64,000 nt of DNA from Candidatus Avelusimicrobium intestinale. Its GTDB lineage: Bacteria > Elusimicrobiota > Elusimicrobia > Elusimicrobiales > Elusimicrobiaceae. The notes beneath the pieces are model-generated. The model was not told the origin of the DNA. It worked only from the letters and a program-made list of their open reading frames with translations, and ran no database searches. A program made the position numbers and the translations under genes. Positions 11,182 through 28,839 of this stretch are shown here, piece after piece. Position 1 is the first letter of the stretch. The number at the start of each line of letters is the position of its first letter. The DNA lies in contig CACWYV010000006.1 of the NCBI GenBank assembly GCA_902765225.1, positions 1-64,000 of the forward strand, read 5' to 3'.

Positions 11182-11255
11182 TTCCGGATGGTGAAATGGT
11201 ATCACTACTGGTTTTGGTCCAGTCATTCTAGGTTCGAGTCCTAGTCCGGAAACCA
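11182..11255 (+). tRNA. tRNA-Gln (TTG)
   Basis: Acceptor TTCCGGA/TCCGGAA. Anticodon stem ACTGG/CCAGT encloses loop TTTTGGT, giving anticodon TTG. T-arm is CTAGG TTCGAGT CCTAG. Discriminator A is followed by an encoded CCA. A structured repeat carrying copies of this T-arm follows directly (11304-11450). Confidence 0.95.
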
Positions 11256-11258
11256 TAT

Positions 11259-11287
11259 AAAAAACCCTGCTGATGGCAGGGTTTTTT
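11259..11287 (+). terminator. Intrinsic terminator after tRNA-Gln
   Basis: AACCCTGC and GCAGGGTT flank a 5-base loop; six As lead in and six Ts follow. It lies 3 bases after the CCA end. Confidence 0.88.
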
Positions 11288-11303
11288 ATATGGGTGGCGG
11301 AAA

Positions 11304-11450
11304 GCGGGCAAACTGCTTTGCCCGCGTTAGGACTCGAAGCCCGGAGCGTTGTTTTTGTTTGAGCGTGCAAAGCCGCGAAAGGCAAAAACCGCGAGGGCAG
11401 GCCCGAAGGAAAAATCCGTCAGGATTTTTACCGAAGGGCGAGTCTACGCT
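11304..11450 (+). repeat. tRNA-trailing structured repeat, copy A (Gln type)
   Basis: Order seen: (1) hairpin 11304-11325, stem GCGGGCAAA, loop CTGC; (2) TTAGGACTCGAA (11327-11338), the reverse complement of the neighbouring tRNA-Gln T-arm; (3) a core with GTTTTTG pairing to CAAAAAC, an inner GCC/GGC stem, and GGGCAGGCCC; (4) hairpin 11410-11429, stem AAAAATCC, loop GTCA; (5) GGGCGAGTCTA (11436-11446), an imperfect direct T-arm copy able to pair with part 2. The same plan recurs after tRNA-Ser and tRNA-Thr. From 11451 to the PTS gene I see only a short decayed stretch and a TACAAT box near 11602. Confidence 0.85.
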
Positions 11451-19607: not shown

Positions 19608-19692
19608 ACCAAACGGGACCAATTTATCTCTATTCCTAAATTTGATATAATAAAGGGAATGGATGCACGGCCACCCGGCACGCAAACGATTT

Positions 19693-19777
19693 GGAGAGGT
19701 GTGTGAGTGGTTGAAACAGCAGGTCTCGAAAACCTGTAAACCGCAAGGTTTCGAGGGTTCAAATCCCTCCCTCTCCG
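19693..19777 (+). tRNA. tRNA-Ser (CGA)
   Basis: A long-variable-arm tRNA. Acceptor GGAGAGG/CCTCTCC, anticodon stem CAGGT/ACCTG around CTCGAAA (anticodon CGA), T-arm GAGGG TTCAAAT CCCTC, discriminator G. CCA is not encoded. TATAAT lies at 19646-19651. Confidence 0.95.
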
Positions 19778-19780
19778 TTG

Positions 19781-19818: not shown

Positions 19819-19829
19819 AACGGATGGAG

Positions 19830-20328
19830 CCACGCAAACTGCTTTGCGTGGCGTCGGGATTTGAAAGCCGGAGCCTTATGCGAGTTTGAGTGCCTTTGGC
19901 ACGAAAGGCGAGTAGAGCGAGGCGGGGTCGCGAGCGCCGCACGTCACTAAGGCGACTTGTGACCAAATCCCCAGAGAGTGGAACCACTCAAACGGCTTCC
20001 TGCCTCGTCAGGATTTGAAAGCCGGAGCCTTATGCGAGTTTGAGTGCCTTTGGCACGAAAGGCGAGTAGGGCGAGGCGGGGTCGCGAGCGCCGCACGTCA
20101 GTAATGCGACTTGTGACCAAATCCTCGGAGAGTGGAACCACTCAAACGGCTTCCTGCCTCGTCGGGATTTGAAAGCTGCAGCGATGTTTTTGTTTGAGTC
20201 CGCAAGGGCGAAAGGCAAAAACCGCGAGGGCAGGCCCGAACGCAATTTCCGTCAGGAAATTGACGTAGGGCAAATCCCTAAAACACGGAGCAGTATCCAA
20301 GGCCCTACTGTCGCGTCGGGATTTTGGG
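19830..20328 (+). repeat. tRNA-trailing structured repeat array, copy B (Ser type)
   Basis: Hairpin 19830-19851 (stem CCACGCAAA, loop CTGC) opens the array. Two tandem units of exactly 154 bases follow (19854-20007, 20008-20161). Each begins GTCGGGATTTGAA or GTCAGGATTTGAA, the inverse of the tRNA-Ser T-arm, and contains ACCAAATCC, its direct form. A third unit (20162-20280) switches to the core seen in copies A and C, with hairpin 20243-20262 (stem CAATTTCC, loop GTCA) and the end GGGCAAATCCCTA. A truncated fourth start, CGTCGGGATTTTGGG, lies at 20314-20328 and adjoins the nifJ promoter. This fills the 640-base gap before nifJ. Confidence 0.87.
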
Positions 20329-20357
20329 TTGGCAAGTTTCTACCAAAATTCTATAAT
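20329..20357 (+). promoter_or_regulatory. Promoter of the pyruvate:ferredoxin oxidoreductase gene
   Basis: TTGGCA (20329-20334) and TATAAT (20352-20357) with an ideal 17-base spacer. The -35 box touches the end of the tRNA-Ser repeat array, so the array may influence this promoter. Confidence 0.8.
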
Positions 20358-20421
20358 AAATATAAGCCGGTTTTTCGTACGGCCCAATAACCGTTTTATT
20401 TTAAAAAGGAGACTTTTCAGT

Positions 20422-23400
20422 ATGGCTAAATTAGTCGCCATGGACGGCAACGGAGCAGTATCTCACGTCGCCCATGCTACCAACGAAGTAATTGCTATTT
20501 ATCCGATTACGCCCTCTTCTACGATGGGCGAAATCTGTGATGCCAAAAGCGCCAAAGGCGAAACGAACATCTGGGGCAACGTACCCTCGGTCAGCGAATT
20601 GCAATCCGAAGGCGGTGCGTCCGGTGCGGTACACGGCTCTTTGGTAGCCGGTGCCTTGACCACCACTTTTACCGCTTCCCAGGGCCTCTTGCTTATGATT
20701 CCCAATATGTACAAAATCGCGGGTGAATTAACCCCCACGGTTTTCCACGTATCGGCCCGGGCGATTGCTACCACCGCTTTGTCCATTTTCGGCGACCATT
20801 CCGACGTTATGGCCGTACGCCAAACCGGGTGGGCCATGCTCTGCTCCGACAATCCGCAAGAAGCCATGGACCTCGCCCTCGTAGCGCAGGCGTCCACCTT
20901 GCGTGCCCGCGTCCCGTTTGTACACTTCTTTGATGGATTCCGCACCAGCCACGAACTGAACATGGTGGAACCACTGACCAAAGAACAAATGAAAGAAATG
21001 ATTAACGACGAACTCGTGGCTCAACACAAATCCCGCGGTTTAAACCCGGAACATCCGACCGTGCGCGGTACGGCTGCCAACCCGGATGTATACTTCCAAG
21101 AACGCGAAGCCGTCAATAAATTTTATAACGCTGTTCCCGGTATCGTCAAAGAAGAAATGGCGAAACTAGCCAAAATGACGGGCCGCACCTACGACCTTTT
21201 CCAATATTTCGGTGATAAAGATGCCGAACGCTTGGTAGTGGTGATGGGCTCCGGGGCCGATGTAGCCCAAAACGCCGTGGAAGTCCTAAAAGGTGAAAAA
21301 GTGGGCGTCCTCAAAGTAAAATTGTTCCGCCCGTTCTCCATTGCCGATTTCATCCGCGTTATCCCCAACACCGTCAAGAAAGTAGCCGTGTTGGACCGCA
21401 CCAAAGAACCCGGTTCGTTGGGCGAGCCGTTGTTCCAAGATGTCTGCGCGGCCTTCTTAACCGACGAAGCCAAAGCCAAATTCCCTGCTACTCCGCTGAT
21501 CATCGGCGGGCGCTACGGTATCGGCTCTAAAGACTTTACGCCTTCAGACGTGAAAGCCGTGTTTGACAATCTGGCCGCCAAAACTCCGATCAAAGATTTT
21601 GTGGTAGGTATCAACGACGATTTGACCCACAAATCGTTACCCGCCGCTAAATTGGAGAGCAAATCCGGTAACGACATTTTTGCCGCGTTATTCTACGGTT
21701 TGGGTTCGGACGGTACCGTCGGTGCCAATAAAAACACGATGAAAATTATTTCTGCCAACGGGTTCTTCGCGCAAGGGTACTTCGTCTATGACTCAAAAAA
21801 ATCAGGGTCTATGACCACGTCCCACATCCGCTTCGGCAAAAATTACATCCGTGCGCCGTACCTCATCCAATCGGCTGATTTTATCGGCGTACATATGTTT
21901 GATTTCTTGGATAAATACGACGTACTCGGCAAAGCCAAAAAAGGGGCTACCGTGCTCATCAACTCGCCGTACAACGCCGAGGAAGTGTGGAACCACTTAA
22001 CTGCGGAAGTACAACAAATCATCATTGACCGCCAGTTAAAGGTATATGTGATTGACGCTTCCGAAATTGCCCTCAAAACGGGTATGGGTAGCCGCACCAA
22101 TACCATTATGCAAACGGCATTCTTTGGCATTGCGGGTGTCATCCCGTCCGAAAAAGCCATCGCGGACATCAAACACGCCATTGAAAAAACGTATTCCAAA
22201 AAAGGCGAAGAAGTCGTGCAGAAGAACTACAAAGCCGTAGATGCGGCCTTGGCGGGCTTACACGAAGTGAAATATCCGTCCAAAGTTTCTTCCAAACTGC
22301 ACACCAAGGCCCCCGTTCCGGCAGATGCTCCGGCGTTTGTAAAAGACGTCCTGGGCGAAATGATTGCCGGCCGCGGCGATAACTTGCCGACTTCGGCCAT
22401 GCCCGAAGGCGGCGTATATCCCACCGGTACCACCCAGTACGAAAAACGCAACATTGCGCTAATGGTTCCGGCGTGGGACCCGGATACCTGCATCCAATGC
22501 GGTTTCTGCTCTATGGTTTGCCCGCATGCGGCTATTCGCATAAAGGCCTACGACGCGGACGCTTTGAAAAACGCCCCCAAAACCTTTAAATCTGCCGACG
22601 GAAAAGCCGATCTGGCCGGCAAAAAATTCACCGTACAGGTAGCGGTGGAAGACTGCACCGGCTGCGGCGCGTGCGTATTTAACTGCCCGGCCAAAAACAA
22701 AGAAAATCCGGAAAAGAAAGCCATCAATATGGTGCACCAACTTTCCGTACGCGAAAACGAAGTGGACAACTACGCTTTCTTCTTGGGTCTCAAACAAGCC
22801 GATGTAAAAACCAAGAAGGAATCTGTCAAAGGCTCTCAAATGAGAAAGCCCTTGTTTGAGTTCTCCGGCGCGTGCGCGGGCTGCGGGGAAACGCCGTACG
22901 TTAAACTCTTAACGCAATTGTTCGGTGACCGCTTGGCAGTAGCCAACGCAACGGGCTGTTCGTCCATTTACGGCGGTAACTTACCCACCACCCCCTATTG
23001 CCAACGCGAAGACGGCAAAGGGCCGGCCTGGGCGAACTCGCTCTTTGAAGACAATGCGGAGTTCGGTTTGGGAATGCGCTTGGCATTTGACCAACTCAAC
23101 CACGATGCCAAGGCCCTGTTGGAGCAAGCCAAACAAGATGAAAACTTCAAAGCCCACACGGCCTTGATTGACAACATCTTGAACGCCGACCAAACAACCG
23201 ATGCCGGCGTAGAAGAACAACGCAAACGCGTAGCCGAACTCAAAGGCATCTTGGAAGGCGGAGCCAAAAAAGGATGCGAAACCTGCAAACGGCTTTTAAG
23301 TTTGGCCGATTACCTCATCCGCAAATCCGTGTGGATTTTGGGCGGTGACGGTTGGGCCTATGATATCGGCTACGGTGGTTTAGACCACGTACTCGCCAGC

Positions 23401-23994
23401 GGCAAGAATATCAAAATCTTAGTGTTGGATACGGAAGTCTATTCCAACACCGGCGGCCAGATGTCCAAAGCCACCCCGTTAGGAGCCAAGGCCTTATTCG
23501 CCGCGGGCGGCAAGACCATGCCGAAAAAAGACCTCGGTATGATTGCCATGACCTATGGCAACATCTACGTGGCGCAAGTAGCCATGGGAGCCAACATGAA
23601 TCAGGCCATCCAAGCCCTCGCGGAAGCGGATGCTTACGACGGACCGGCCCTCGTGATTGCCTACTCGCACTGTATCGCCCACGGAATTGATATGTCCAAA
23701 GGTATGGGTGAAGCCAAACGTGCCGTACAAGCCGGGCGCTGGATTCTGTATCGTTTCAATCCGCAGGCCCGTTACGAAGGCAAGAACCCCTTGCATGTGG
23801 ATAGCCCGCTCGGCGCGCCGACGTTGCCGTTGGCAGACTATATGAGTGGCGAAAACCGCTTCAAAGGATTGATGCGCGATAATCCGGAACTGGCGCAGAA
23901 ACTCATTAAGCAAGCGGAAAGCGAGTATGCGTGGCGGCGCGATTTGTACAAACAACTCGCAGCTATTACGCCTGCTGAAAAATTAGAAAAATAA
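20422..23994 (+). CDS. nifJ: Pyruvate:ferredoxin (flavodoxin) oxidoreductase
   Basis: 1190 residues, full length for the single-chain enzyme. It converts pyruvate and CoA to acetyl-CoA and CO2, reducing ferredoxin. Seen in order: pyrimidine-binding domain (YPITPSSTMGE), transketolase-C-like domain, the 4Fe-4S ferredoxin domain (CIQCGFCSMVC and CTGCGACVFNC), a proximal-cluster Cys pair (CAGCGE), and the TPP-binding domain GDGWAYDIGYGGLDH with LDTEVYSNTGGQ. ATG 20422 has AAAGGAG upstream. Reduced ferredoxin can feed the HydABC hydrogenase at 51-55 kb. The last 17 codons are duplicated downstream. Confidence 0.97.
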   Translation: MAKLVAMDGNGAVSHVAHATNEVIAIYPITPSSTMGEICDAKSAKGETNIWGNVPSVSELQSEGGASGAVHGSLVAGALTTTFTASQGLLLMIPNMYKIAGELTPTVFHVSARAIATTALSIFGDHSDVMAVRQTGWAMLCSDNPQEAMDLALVAQASTLRARVPFVHFFDGFRTSHELNMVEPLTKEQMKEMINDELVAQHKSRGLNPEHPTVRGTAANPDVYFQEREAVNKFYNAVPGIVKEEMAKLAKMTGRTYDLFQYFGDKDAERLVVVMGSGADVAQNAVEVLKGEKVGVLKVKLFRPFSIADFIRVIPNTVKKVAVLDRTKEPGSLGEPLFQDVCAAFLTDEAKAKFPATPLIIGGRYGIGSKDFTPSDVKAVFDNLAAKTPIKDFVVGINDDLTHKSLPAAKLESKSGNDIFAALFYGLGSDGTVGANKNTMKIISANGFFAQGYFVYDSKKSGSMTTSHIRFGKNYIRAPYLIQSADFIGVHMFDFLDKYDVLGKAKKGATVLINSPYNAEEVWNHLTAEVQQIIIDRQLKVYVIDASEIALKTGMGSRTNTIMQTAFFGIAGVIPSEKAIADIKHAIEKTYSKKGEEVVQKNYKAVDAALAGLHEVKYPSKVSSKLHTKAPVPADAPAFVKDVLGEMIAGRGDNLPTSAMPEGGVYPTGTTQYEKRNIALMVPAWDPDTCIQCGFCSMVCPHAAIRIKAYDADALKNAPKTFKSADGKADLAGKKFTVQVAVEDCTGCGACVFNCPAKNKENPEKKAINMVHQLSVRENEVDNYAFFLGLKQADVKTKKESVKGSQMRKPLFEFSGACAGCGETPYVKLLTQLFGDRLAVANATGCSSIYGGNLPTTPYCQREDGKGPAWANSLFEDNAEFGLGMRLAFDQLNHDAKALLEQAKQDENFKAHTALIDNILNADQTTDAGVEEQRKRVAELKGILEGGAKKGCETCKRLLSLADYLIRKSVWILGGDGWAYDIGYGGLDHVLASGKNIKILVLDTEVYSNTGGQMSKATPLGAKALFAAGGKTMPKKDLGMIAMTYGNIYVAQVAMGANMNQAIQALAEADAYDGPALVIAYSHCIAHGIDMSKGMGEAKRAVQAGRWILYRFNPQARYEGKNPLHVDSPLGAPTLPLADYMSGENRFKGLMRDNPELAQKLIKQAESEYAWRRDLYKQLAAITPAEKLEK

Positions 23995-24243
23995 GTTTAG
24001 TTGCTAAACTAAGCATTAATGAAAAAGTGCCGGGGTTTTCAATATGTTCGCTAATCCGCGATTTGTACAAACAACTCGCGGCTATTACGCCTGCTGAAAA
24101 ATTAGAAAAATAAGTTTAGTTGCTAAACTAAGCATTAAGCCCCGGCGCTGAAAAAGTGCCGGGGTTTTCAATATGTTCGCTAATCCGCGATTTGTACAAA
24201 CAACTCGCGGCTATTACGCCTGCCGAAAAATTAGAAAAATAAG
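23941..24243 (+). repeat. Three tandem copies of the nifJ 3' end
   Basis: A unit starting GATTTGTACAAACAACTCGC occurs at 23941, 24060 and 24189 (spacings 119 and 129). Each copy encodes the PFOR tail DLYKQLAAITPAEKLEK with its stop. The first two also carry the trailing terminator region. Copy 2 has a complete terminator (24139-24168, CCCCGGC/GCCGGGG then TTTT). Copy 1 lacks about 10 bases of its left arm. Copy 3 ends soon after the stop and runs into another terminator. Copies 2 and 3 are untranslated remnants. No gene lies between 23995 and 24308. Confidence 0.93.
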
Positions 24244-24267
24244 TGTACTTACAACAAGCAGTAAAAA

Positions 24268-28568: not shown

Positions 28569-28641
28569 GCCGAGGTAGCTCAATTGGCAGAGCAACGGTT
28601 TTGTAAACCGTAGGTTGTGGGTTCGATTCCCATCCTCGGCT
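28569..28641 (+). tRNA. tRNA-Thr (TGT)
   Basis: Acceptor GCCGAGG/CCTCGGC, D-stem GCTC/GAGC, anticodon stem ACGGT/ACCGT around TTTGTAA (anticodon TGT), T-arm GTGGG TTCGATT CCCAT, discriminator T. CCA is not encoded. Its last 16 bases recur exactly at 28824-28839. Confidence 0.95.
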
Positions 28642-28676: not shown

Positions 28677-28687
28677 TTAAGCAAGAA

Positions 28688-28839
28688 GCGCACAAACTGC
28701 TTTGTGCGCGTTGGGAAGCGAAGCCCGGAGCGTTGTTTTTGTTTGAGCGTGCTAAGCCGCGAAAGGCAAAAACCGCGAGGGCAGGCCCAAAGGCGTTTTG
28801 CGTCAGCAAAACGACCGGAAGGAATTCCCATCCTCGGCT
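28688..28839 (+). repeat. tRNA-trailing structured repeat, copy C (Thr type)
   Basis: Same plan as copy A: hairpin 28688-28709 (stem GCGCACAAA, loop CTGC); inverted T-arm-like TTGGGAAGCGAA; the GTTTTTG...CAAAAAC core nearly identical to copy A; hairpin 28794-28813 (stem CGTTTTGC, loop GTCA). It ends with ATTCCCATCCTCGGCT (28824-28839), an exact 16-base direct copy of the tRNA-Thr 3' end (28626-28641), followed by six Ts. The remaining bases to yajC hold a probable promoter and a ribosome site (AGGAGG) only. Confidence 0.87.

Follow-up and report, generated by a model that had tools for sequence, protein, structure and literature searches.

The window, a stretch of 64,000 nucleotides from Candidatus Avelusimicrobium intestinale, contains repeats behind the genes for tRNA-Gln, tRNA-Ser and tRNA-Thr that belong to a family of ~150-nt non-coding elements. 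Each locus has the layout tRNA..[a b t] b′ H1 a′ core [a b t]. Here, a starts at T-loop position 57 and ends with the 3′ strand of the T-stem, b is the acceptor 3′ strand and t is the trailer with its terminator. The arm a′ repeats tRNA positions 57-64 (T-loop and 3′ strand of the T-stem) in inverted form and corresponds to the inverted copy described in an earlier note on this DNA. The segment b′ copies the acceptor end, also inverted but less closely, and a hairpin, H1, separates it (upstream) from a′. All parts of the three loci in the window are on the forward (+) strand. When the window was compared with Rfam, the only matches were six tRNAs, with no known RNA family at the element and no intron.

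The first copy has tRNA-Gln(TTG) as its host (11182..11255; called by ARAGORN and Rfam), whose T-loop position 57 is at 11236. Segments a and b of this gene (11236..11251), from T-loop position 57 to the acceptor 3′ end, occur inverted in the element. The terminator hairpin t (11262..11284) lies between the tRNA and the element. The weak inverted copy of the acceptor end, b′, is at 11293..11301. There follow H1 (AAGCGGGCAAACTGCTTTGCCCGC; 11302..11325), the 5′ arm a′ (GTTAGGACTCGAA; 11326..11338, with TTAGGACTCGAA at 11327-11338) and the conserved core (11339..11439), as assigned from the alignment and consensus fold. The core includes a GTTTGA...GAAAGGC internal loop and a hairpin with a GTCA loop (11410-11429). 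The 3′ arm (GGGCGAGTCTACGC; 11436..11449, with GGGCGAGTCTAC from 11436) is a decayed direct copy of the T-arm.

Three tandem copies follow tRNA-Ser(CGA) (19692..19778). The first (19825..19978) has a variant core, with H1 at ~19830, a′ at 19855-19865 and a direct T-arm copy at 19964. The second (19979..20132; a′ at 20008-20019, direct copy at 20118) is 90% identical to the first, and the third (20133..20285; a′ at 20163-20173, direct copy at 20271) has the main core type. The inverted segments are CGGGATTTGAA at 19855 and 20163, and TCAGGATTTGAA at 20008; each direct copy contains CAAATCC. At the third host, tRNA-Thr(TGT) (28569..28641), the copy (28686..28824) consists of H1 (28686-28709), a′ (TTGGGAAGCGAA; 28711-28722) and a core that extends up to 28824. 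The 3′ end of this tRNA (TTCCCATCCTCGGCT; 28627-28641) recurs immediately afterwards as an exact 15-nt direct copy (TTCCCATCCTCGGCT; 28825..28839), which is the right edge of a target duplication. The Gln and Thr inverted copies have 1-2 mismatches each. The segments that the earlier note had named for Gln, Ser and Thr are all present in the sequence. Another repeat in the window (23901-24250) consists of three direct copies of the 3′ end and terminator of a gene of 1221 aa (20329-23994).

In the organism's own genome (1.41 Mb), a query with the Gln copy revealed at least 11 clear places. The copies there lie directly behind the tRNAs Gln(TTG), Gln(CTG), Pro (two), Thr and Val (two), and also behind Ser(CGA) (the tandem copies), Ser(TGA), Leu and Met. 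The element is present in 40 of the 41 genomes of the genus. A covariance model built from 50 copies found it in 98 of 248 Elusimicrobiota genomes, representing 23 of 76 genera. A 22-nt core pattern matched 44 stretches in named genomes, nearly all of them Elusimicrobium or Elusimicrobiaceae, as well as four contigs of Parcubacteria/Paceibacterota. We found no match to the element in phages and plasmids, and none to the exact 22-nt core pattern in viral contigs. We found no account of the element in the open-access literature that we searched, which took in few subscription journals or preprints, and it may have been described before.

We collected 180 distinct copies from Elusimicrobiota loci and the four Parcubacteria contigs. 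In every copy with an upstream tRNA in the fetched DNA (153 of 153), this tRNA is on the same strand. The remaining 27 of the 180 have no upstream tRNA in the fetched stretch, and none of the 180 has a tRNA on the opposite strand. Most copies (117 of 180) lie within 110 nt after the same-strand tRNA, 32 lie within 700 nt (tandem copies), and 4 are farther away. In total, 25 anticodons are used as hosts. The pattern is the same at 30 loci of other genera, several of them from other Elusimicrobiota families, wherever the fetched DNA includes the tRNA. At one Kaiserbacteria locus (L068), the element stands behind a tRNA-like 3′ half at which ARAGORN calls no tRNA; the upstream sequence resembles an intron-split tRNA-Met.

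The arms follow the neighbouring tRNA. When the arm is set against positions 57-64 of the adjacent tRNA, 550 of 616 positions are Watson-Crick pairs and 6 are wobble pairs. Most of the remainder are G.A at 57/58, together with changes at 64. All four Watson-Crick pair types are present at positions 59 and 64. Over 76 pairs of element and tRNA, mismatches in the 12-nt inverted arm number 1.67 against its own tRNA and 4.18 against the others; they sum to 127, whereas 1000 permutations gave 303 on average and 271 at the least. The b′ segments, which the earlier note had not named, also follow the tRNA (166 versus a permutation mean of 245 and a minimum of 221 in 2000; 59 loci). The match is far beyond chance, and we confirm that the observation is real and general. 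The proposal that tRNA-specific arms sit on a constant core is borne out by near-identical cores with wholly different arms, each of which fits its own tRNA. It also withstood a search for copies that do not match the adjacent tRNA, which covered ~76-97 copies with an identified tRNA.

The fit has exceptions. At positions 57/58 of the tRNAs for Asn, Leu(GAG), Gln, His, Arg and Thr, the arm often retains G.A mismatches. Their type depends on the T-loop sequence, with tandem G.A at GAG loops and a single A.G at GAY loops. Neither copying nor pairing alone accounts for these mismatches. Separately, a variant element behind a Paceibacterota tRNA-Lys (L071:4695-5200) occurs as two tandem copies, and has neither H1 nor a copy of the T-arm. 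Its arms consist of the acceptor end GGACACG, inverted and direct, which suggests that the target-matching arm can move along the tRNA.

The cores are not tied to particular tRNAs. In a tree of 54 cores from which the arms had been removed, the tRNA label changes 35 times, with many forks unresolved. We found 13 pairs of copies whose cores are at least 93% identical and whose T-arms differ at two or more of 8 bases; the pairs have members in common, so they do not represent 13 independent events. In these pairs, the core diverges by 5% per site and a′ by 54%, and a′ mismatches the tRNA beside it at 0.5 positions and that of its partner at 4.0. For example, a copy at tRNA-Thr(CGT) (L087) and one at tRNA-Leu(CAA) (L066) have 97% identical cores, and their arms fit Thr with 1 mismatch and Leu with 0, respectively. 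Given that cores with 93-97% identity occur at different tRNAs with arms that match each, the arms are replaced when a core changes its tRNA. We reject the idea of tRNA-specific lineages, because the core tree and the 13 pairs indicate that cores often switch tRNA.

The match also arises early. Young copies have 0.31 mismatches at positions 59-64 and older copies 0.33, versus 2.2 for random pairing. Given that young and old copies are so similar, the arm matched its tRNA from a very early stage. If compensatory selection had acted slowly on the arm, young copies should match worse; this reading is rejected because they do not differ from old ones (Spearman 0.10, p = 0.31). Acquisition of host sequence, one of the earlier note's two options, is supported by these results, since the youngest insertions fit their tRNA as well as old ones and near-identical cores carry different, matching arms. 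Some young copies retain 1-3 mismatches, mostly G.A at 57/58. L110, L112 and L327 keep donor-like bases and show that the updating of the arm is imperfect.

Young copies lie within a direct repeat of target sequence. [a b t] flanks 13 copies left and right, and the two versions are at least 95% identical over 41-69 nt. Some of the 13 stand first in a tandem array, in which unit duplication could give the same repeat. A single-copy example is L059 at tRNA-Leu, where AAAATATAAACCGCCAAACGGCGGTTTTTTATTT stands behind the tRNA on both sides and is followed by divergence. Further single-copy examples, L368, L381 and L390, come from other families and are independent. One of its edges is at T-loop position 56/57. 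The other is variable, and is often at the T-run behind the terminator or 7-15 nt past the tRNA. The direct T-arm copy is part of this 41-69 nt duplication in young copies; that of the Gln copy has decayed.

The earlier note envisaged a comparison of orthologous tRNA loci, and syntenic tRNA-Asp(GTC) loci indeed differ in the presence of the element. Several genomes lack it despite conserved upstream synteny (~68-77% over ~800 nt), and it occurs at L154, L155 and L192, as well as at L089, where the upstream match is short. Because the trailers to the left and right are not alike, this locus shows no clean duplication. Since the fetched relatives contain no orthologous tRNA for the Gln and Thr loci of the window, the evidence from presence and absence rests on tRNA-Asp. 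A separate ~300-nt palindromic insert, with ends GGGTTGGCAAGG...CCTTGCCAACCCC, occurs in L057, L061 and L133, and a remnant is in the window at 20318-20336. This insert is located exactly in the inverted arm of Thr and Asp copies of the element, as if it recognised that arm.

The stems of the element change by whole pairs. We observed 63 distinct 9-bp stems for H1, with G-T in 5 of 547 pairs, and 34 stems for the GTCA hairpin, with 8 G-T among 267. Of the 35 consensus pairs in the alignment, 25 have both partners substituted in at least one sequence, and one-sided changes are rare. One pair in H1 is GC in 25 cases and AT in 25, with zero intermediates. RNA helices usually show many G-U intermediates. 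Given that both sides of the stems change and that G-T is almost absent, pairing is kept at the level of DNA.

These data bear on the possibility that the element is a cis-acting RNA, either tRNA-like or antisense, that is selected to pair with the neighbouring tRNA and whose arms coevolve with it. The element does have conserved internal loops and a strong fold, and is always downstream of the tRNA and co-oriented with it. However, G-T is nearly absent throughout the 34-63 distinct stems, the arm has few wobbles (6 of 616), the arms are replaced en bloc while cores are still ~95% identical, and copies are often decayed or missing at the same tRNA. We regard such an RNA as very improbable. Nor do the G-T counts in H1 and in the arm support the idea, also raised in the earlier note, that pairing in an RNA accounts for the match.

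The predicted DNA fold of window positions 11229-11445 has a free energy of -69.4 kcal/mol (z -10.3) and the minimum-energy shape a-b-t-b′-H1-a′. Gln segments a and b (11236..11251) are paired with the region 11293-11338: the T-arm strand of tRNA-Gln pairs with a′ and the acceptor end partly with b′, and the terminator and H1 form side hairpins. The inverted arm thus has two possible partners, the neighbouring tRNA gene and the direct copy behind the core. This refines the earlier note's idea that the two segments of a copy can close the whole element into one large hairpin: the best predicted fold pairs the arm with the T-arm of the adjacent tRNA, behind which the acceptor end and terminator are stacked, instead of within the element alone. 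Overall, the interpretation in the earlier note is partly supported. The element probably acts as folded single-stranded DNA, for which the scarcity of G-T pairs and the z-score of the fold are indirect indications.

The pairing pattern fits either single-stranded DNA or block-wise upkeep by template switching, of which compensated multi-base block changes without intermediates are a described signature (PMC8794818). If template switching explains the arms, the core would insert with its donor's arm, and quasipalindrome mutation would then perfect the imperfect inverted repeat, so that the arm tracks the tRNA as a by-product. The H1 and H3 stems do carry this signature, and the donor-like bases in young copies such as L110 and L112 would be leftovers of the donor arm. 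However, the equal match of young and old copies at 59-64 means that conversion must be very fast, and the 57/58 mismatches, nearly all of them G.A, remain inside the tract. We consider this explanation unlikely, with perhaps one chance in a few.

The element holds no gene and has no room for one. We rejected a reverse transcriptase (PF00078), present in 5 of 41 genomes of the genus and absent in 36, and a Y1 transposase (PF01797), found in 13 of 66 genomes and absent from 53, including the organism's own. A dedicated tyrosine integrase was also rejected, as it is not universal among element-bearing genomes. The organism's own genome encodes three tyrosine recombinases, two of them XerC/XerD-like. 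Their scores (118.6, 141.7 and 69.9) do not reach the integrase_gron cut-off of 265 for an integron integrase. Several element-bearing genomes have just two PF00589 genes, of XerC/XerD size. Given that the element lacks its own gene and that neither reverse transcriptase nor Y1 transposase is universal, its mobilisation would fall to host functions or to factors in trans.

A tyrosine recombinase, either Xer or an integrase in trans, could act at the T-loop on a unit, [a b t b′ H1 a′ core], that like phages brings the tRNA 3′ end with it. Crossover in the T-loop with a restored tRNA 3′ end is a classic feature of integrative elements, XerC and XerD are apparently the sole tyrosine recombinases in several element-bearing genomes, and extra GAA bases opposite the arm recall the asymmetry of integron attC hairpins. 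Against this, a recombinase alone leaves unexplained how a, b, t, a′ and b′ of a new tRNA are gained together, no hybrid tRNAs were seen, and we found neither a dedicated integrase nor, among the three recombinases of the organism's own genome, one at the integron-integrase cut-off. We judge this reading, in which the unit would move from strain to strain chiefly at one and the same tRNA gene, to be improbable.

The best explanation, to which we give about an even chance, is a mobile DNA element that is non-autonomous and specialised on tRNA genes, inserts in the T-loop, takes its arms from the target and uses an external enzyme. The mobile form would be a folded single DNA strand, b′-H1-a′-GAA-core. 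Its a′ would pair with T-loop and T-stem bases 57-64 of a tRNA gene and thereby place the 3′ end of the core beside position 57, where joining may occur. Gap filling would then duplicate the downstream segment. The a′/a and b′/b heteroduplexes would presumably be repaired on the target strand, and the arms would thereby come to copy the new tRNA in inverted form. That tRNA would remain intact because its full 3′ end stays on its left side. The joining enzyme would lie outside the element and could be supplied by the host or by another element. Several points count against this best explanation. The searches described above revealed no enzyme, and we saw neither a circular nor a single-stranded form. 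Some young copies retain mismatches, and simple copying does not account for the location of H1 between b′ and a′. The duplication is not clean at tRNA-Asp, and some of the cleanest ones belong to tandem arrays, where duplication of units would look alike. A stronger form is that the element retargets itself: as a folded DNA strand whose 8-nt arm and split acceptor arm serve as a guide to the T-loop, it would insert without an enzyme of its own and overwrite the guide at each target. We put this forward tentatively, and believe it is somewhat more likely to be wrong than right.

A second, separate type of element also emerged. Islands of gene cassettes lie downstream of tRNA-Asp (and Ser) in Elusimicrobia (L186/L187, at ~263-279.8 kb of C1 in the organism's own genome; L188; L189-L190; L191-L192; L115; L089), with cassettes of ~0.7 to >10 kb. 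Their borders read ...AAACTACA..YCCG on one side and TATTTTAGTTTT on the other, and every cassette begins with a terminator and a promoter-like stretch. The cargo includes ankyrin, Fic and Sel1/TPR-like genes. The organism's own genome encodes a large serine recombinase in such an island, separate from the element, where it adjoins tRNA-Asp (L187:7318-8940). The cassettes join at the 3′ terminus of the tRNA, where CTCCG is followed by TATTTTAG.

We compared the element with known systems, and none of the tested families shares all its defining features with the element. Like integron attC sites and gene cassettes, it has structured, poorly coding palindromic sites, a stem asymmetry with extra bases, tandem arrays and a junction half that is common to the next unit. 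By contrast, it lacks the RYYYAAC/GTTRRRY boxes of attC. Its junction is GG(C/G) followed by RANYCC and varies with the tRNA, it targets the T-loop of many tRNAs, its outer arms copy the target, and its own genome has no integron integrase. We therefore reject a reading as integron cassettes, for which neither attC boxes nor integrase were found; the cassettes between copies in L115 and L089 are the second element type.

Elements with tyrosine integrases that use the T-loop share the junction, the direct repeat of the tRNA 3′ end (41-69 nt from position 57 in young copies) and the functional tRNA. Unlike them, the element is only ~150 nt, has no integrase or other gene, occupies at least 25 tRNAs as a single family and carries inverted copies of its target. 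MITEs and other non-autonomous transposons are similarly short, non-coding and multicopy, with target duplication at their flanks. However, the duplication here spans 41-69 nt and has a fixed edge and a variable one, unlike the short, fixed duplication of MITEs of DDE transposons, and there are no constant terminal inverted repeats, as the arms are target-derived. The primer-binding sites of LTR retroelements are also short complements of the 3′ part of a tRNA that track the tRNA used, but the complement in our element is split by a hairpin (57-64, then the acceptor end), and 36 of 41 genomes have no reverse transcriptase, which also speaks against group II introns and other retroelements.

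The hairpins of IS200/IS605 and REP/RAYT elements resemble those of our element in that they are probably active as single-stranded DNA. Those elements insert without target duplication, whereas the element has one, and the Y1 transposase is absent in 53 of 66 genomes. By description, casposon or Cas1-type integration produces a short, fixed duplication at the tRNA 3′ end, whereas that of the element is variable in length. The bridge-RNA guides of IS110/IS1111, elements with a DEDD recombinase and guide loops, differ by description from the element, whose two arms are drawn from one and the same target half. The element thus represents a widespread class, present in Elusimicrobiota and also in Parcubacteria. 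If its arms are written at insertion, then it would exemplify nucleic-acid-guided insertion in which the target rewrites the guide, and we know of no DNA element that behaves in this way. Its hundreds of matched sites form a natural collection for separating single-strand guided insertion from template-switch repair.
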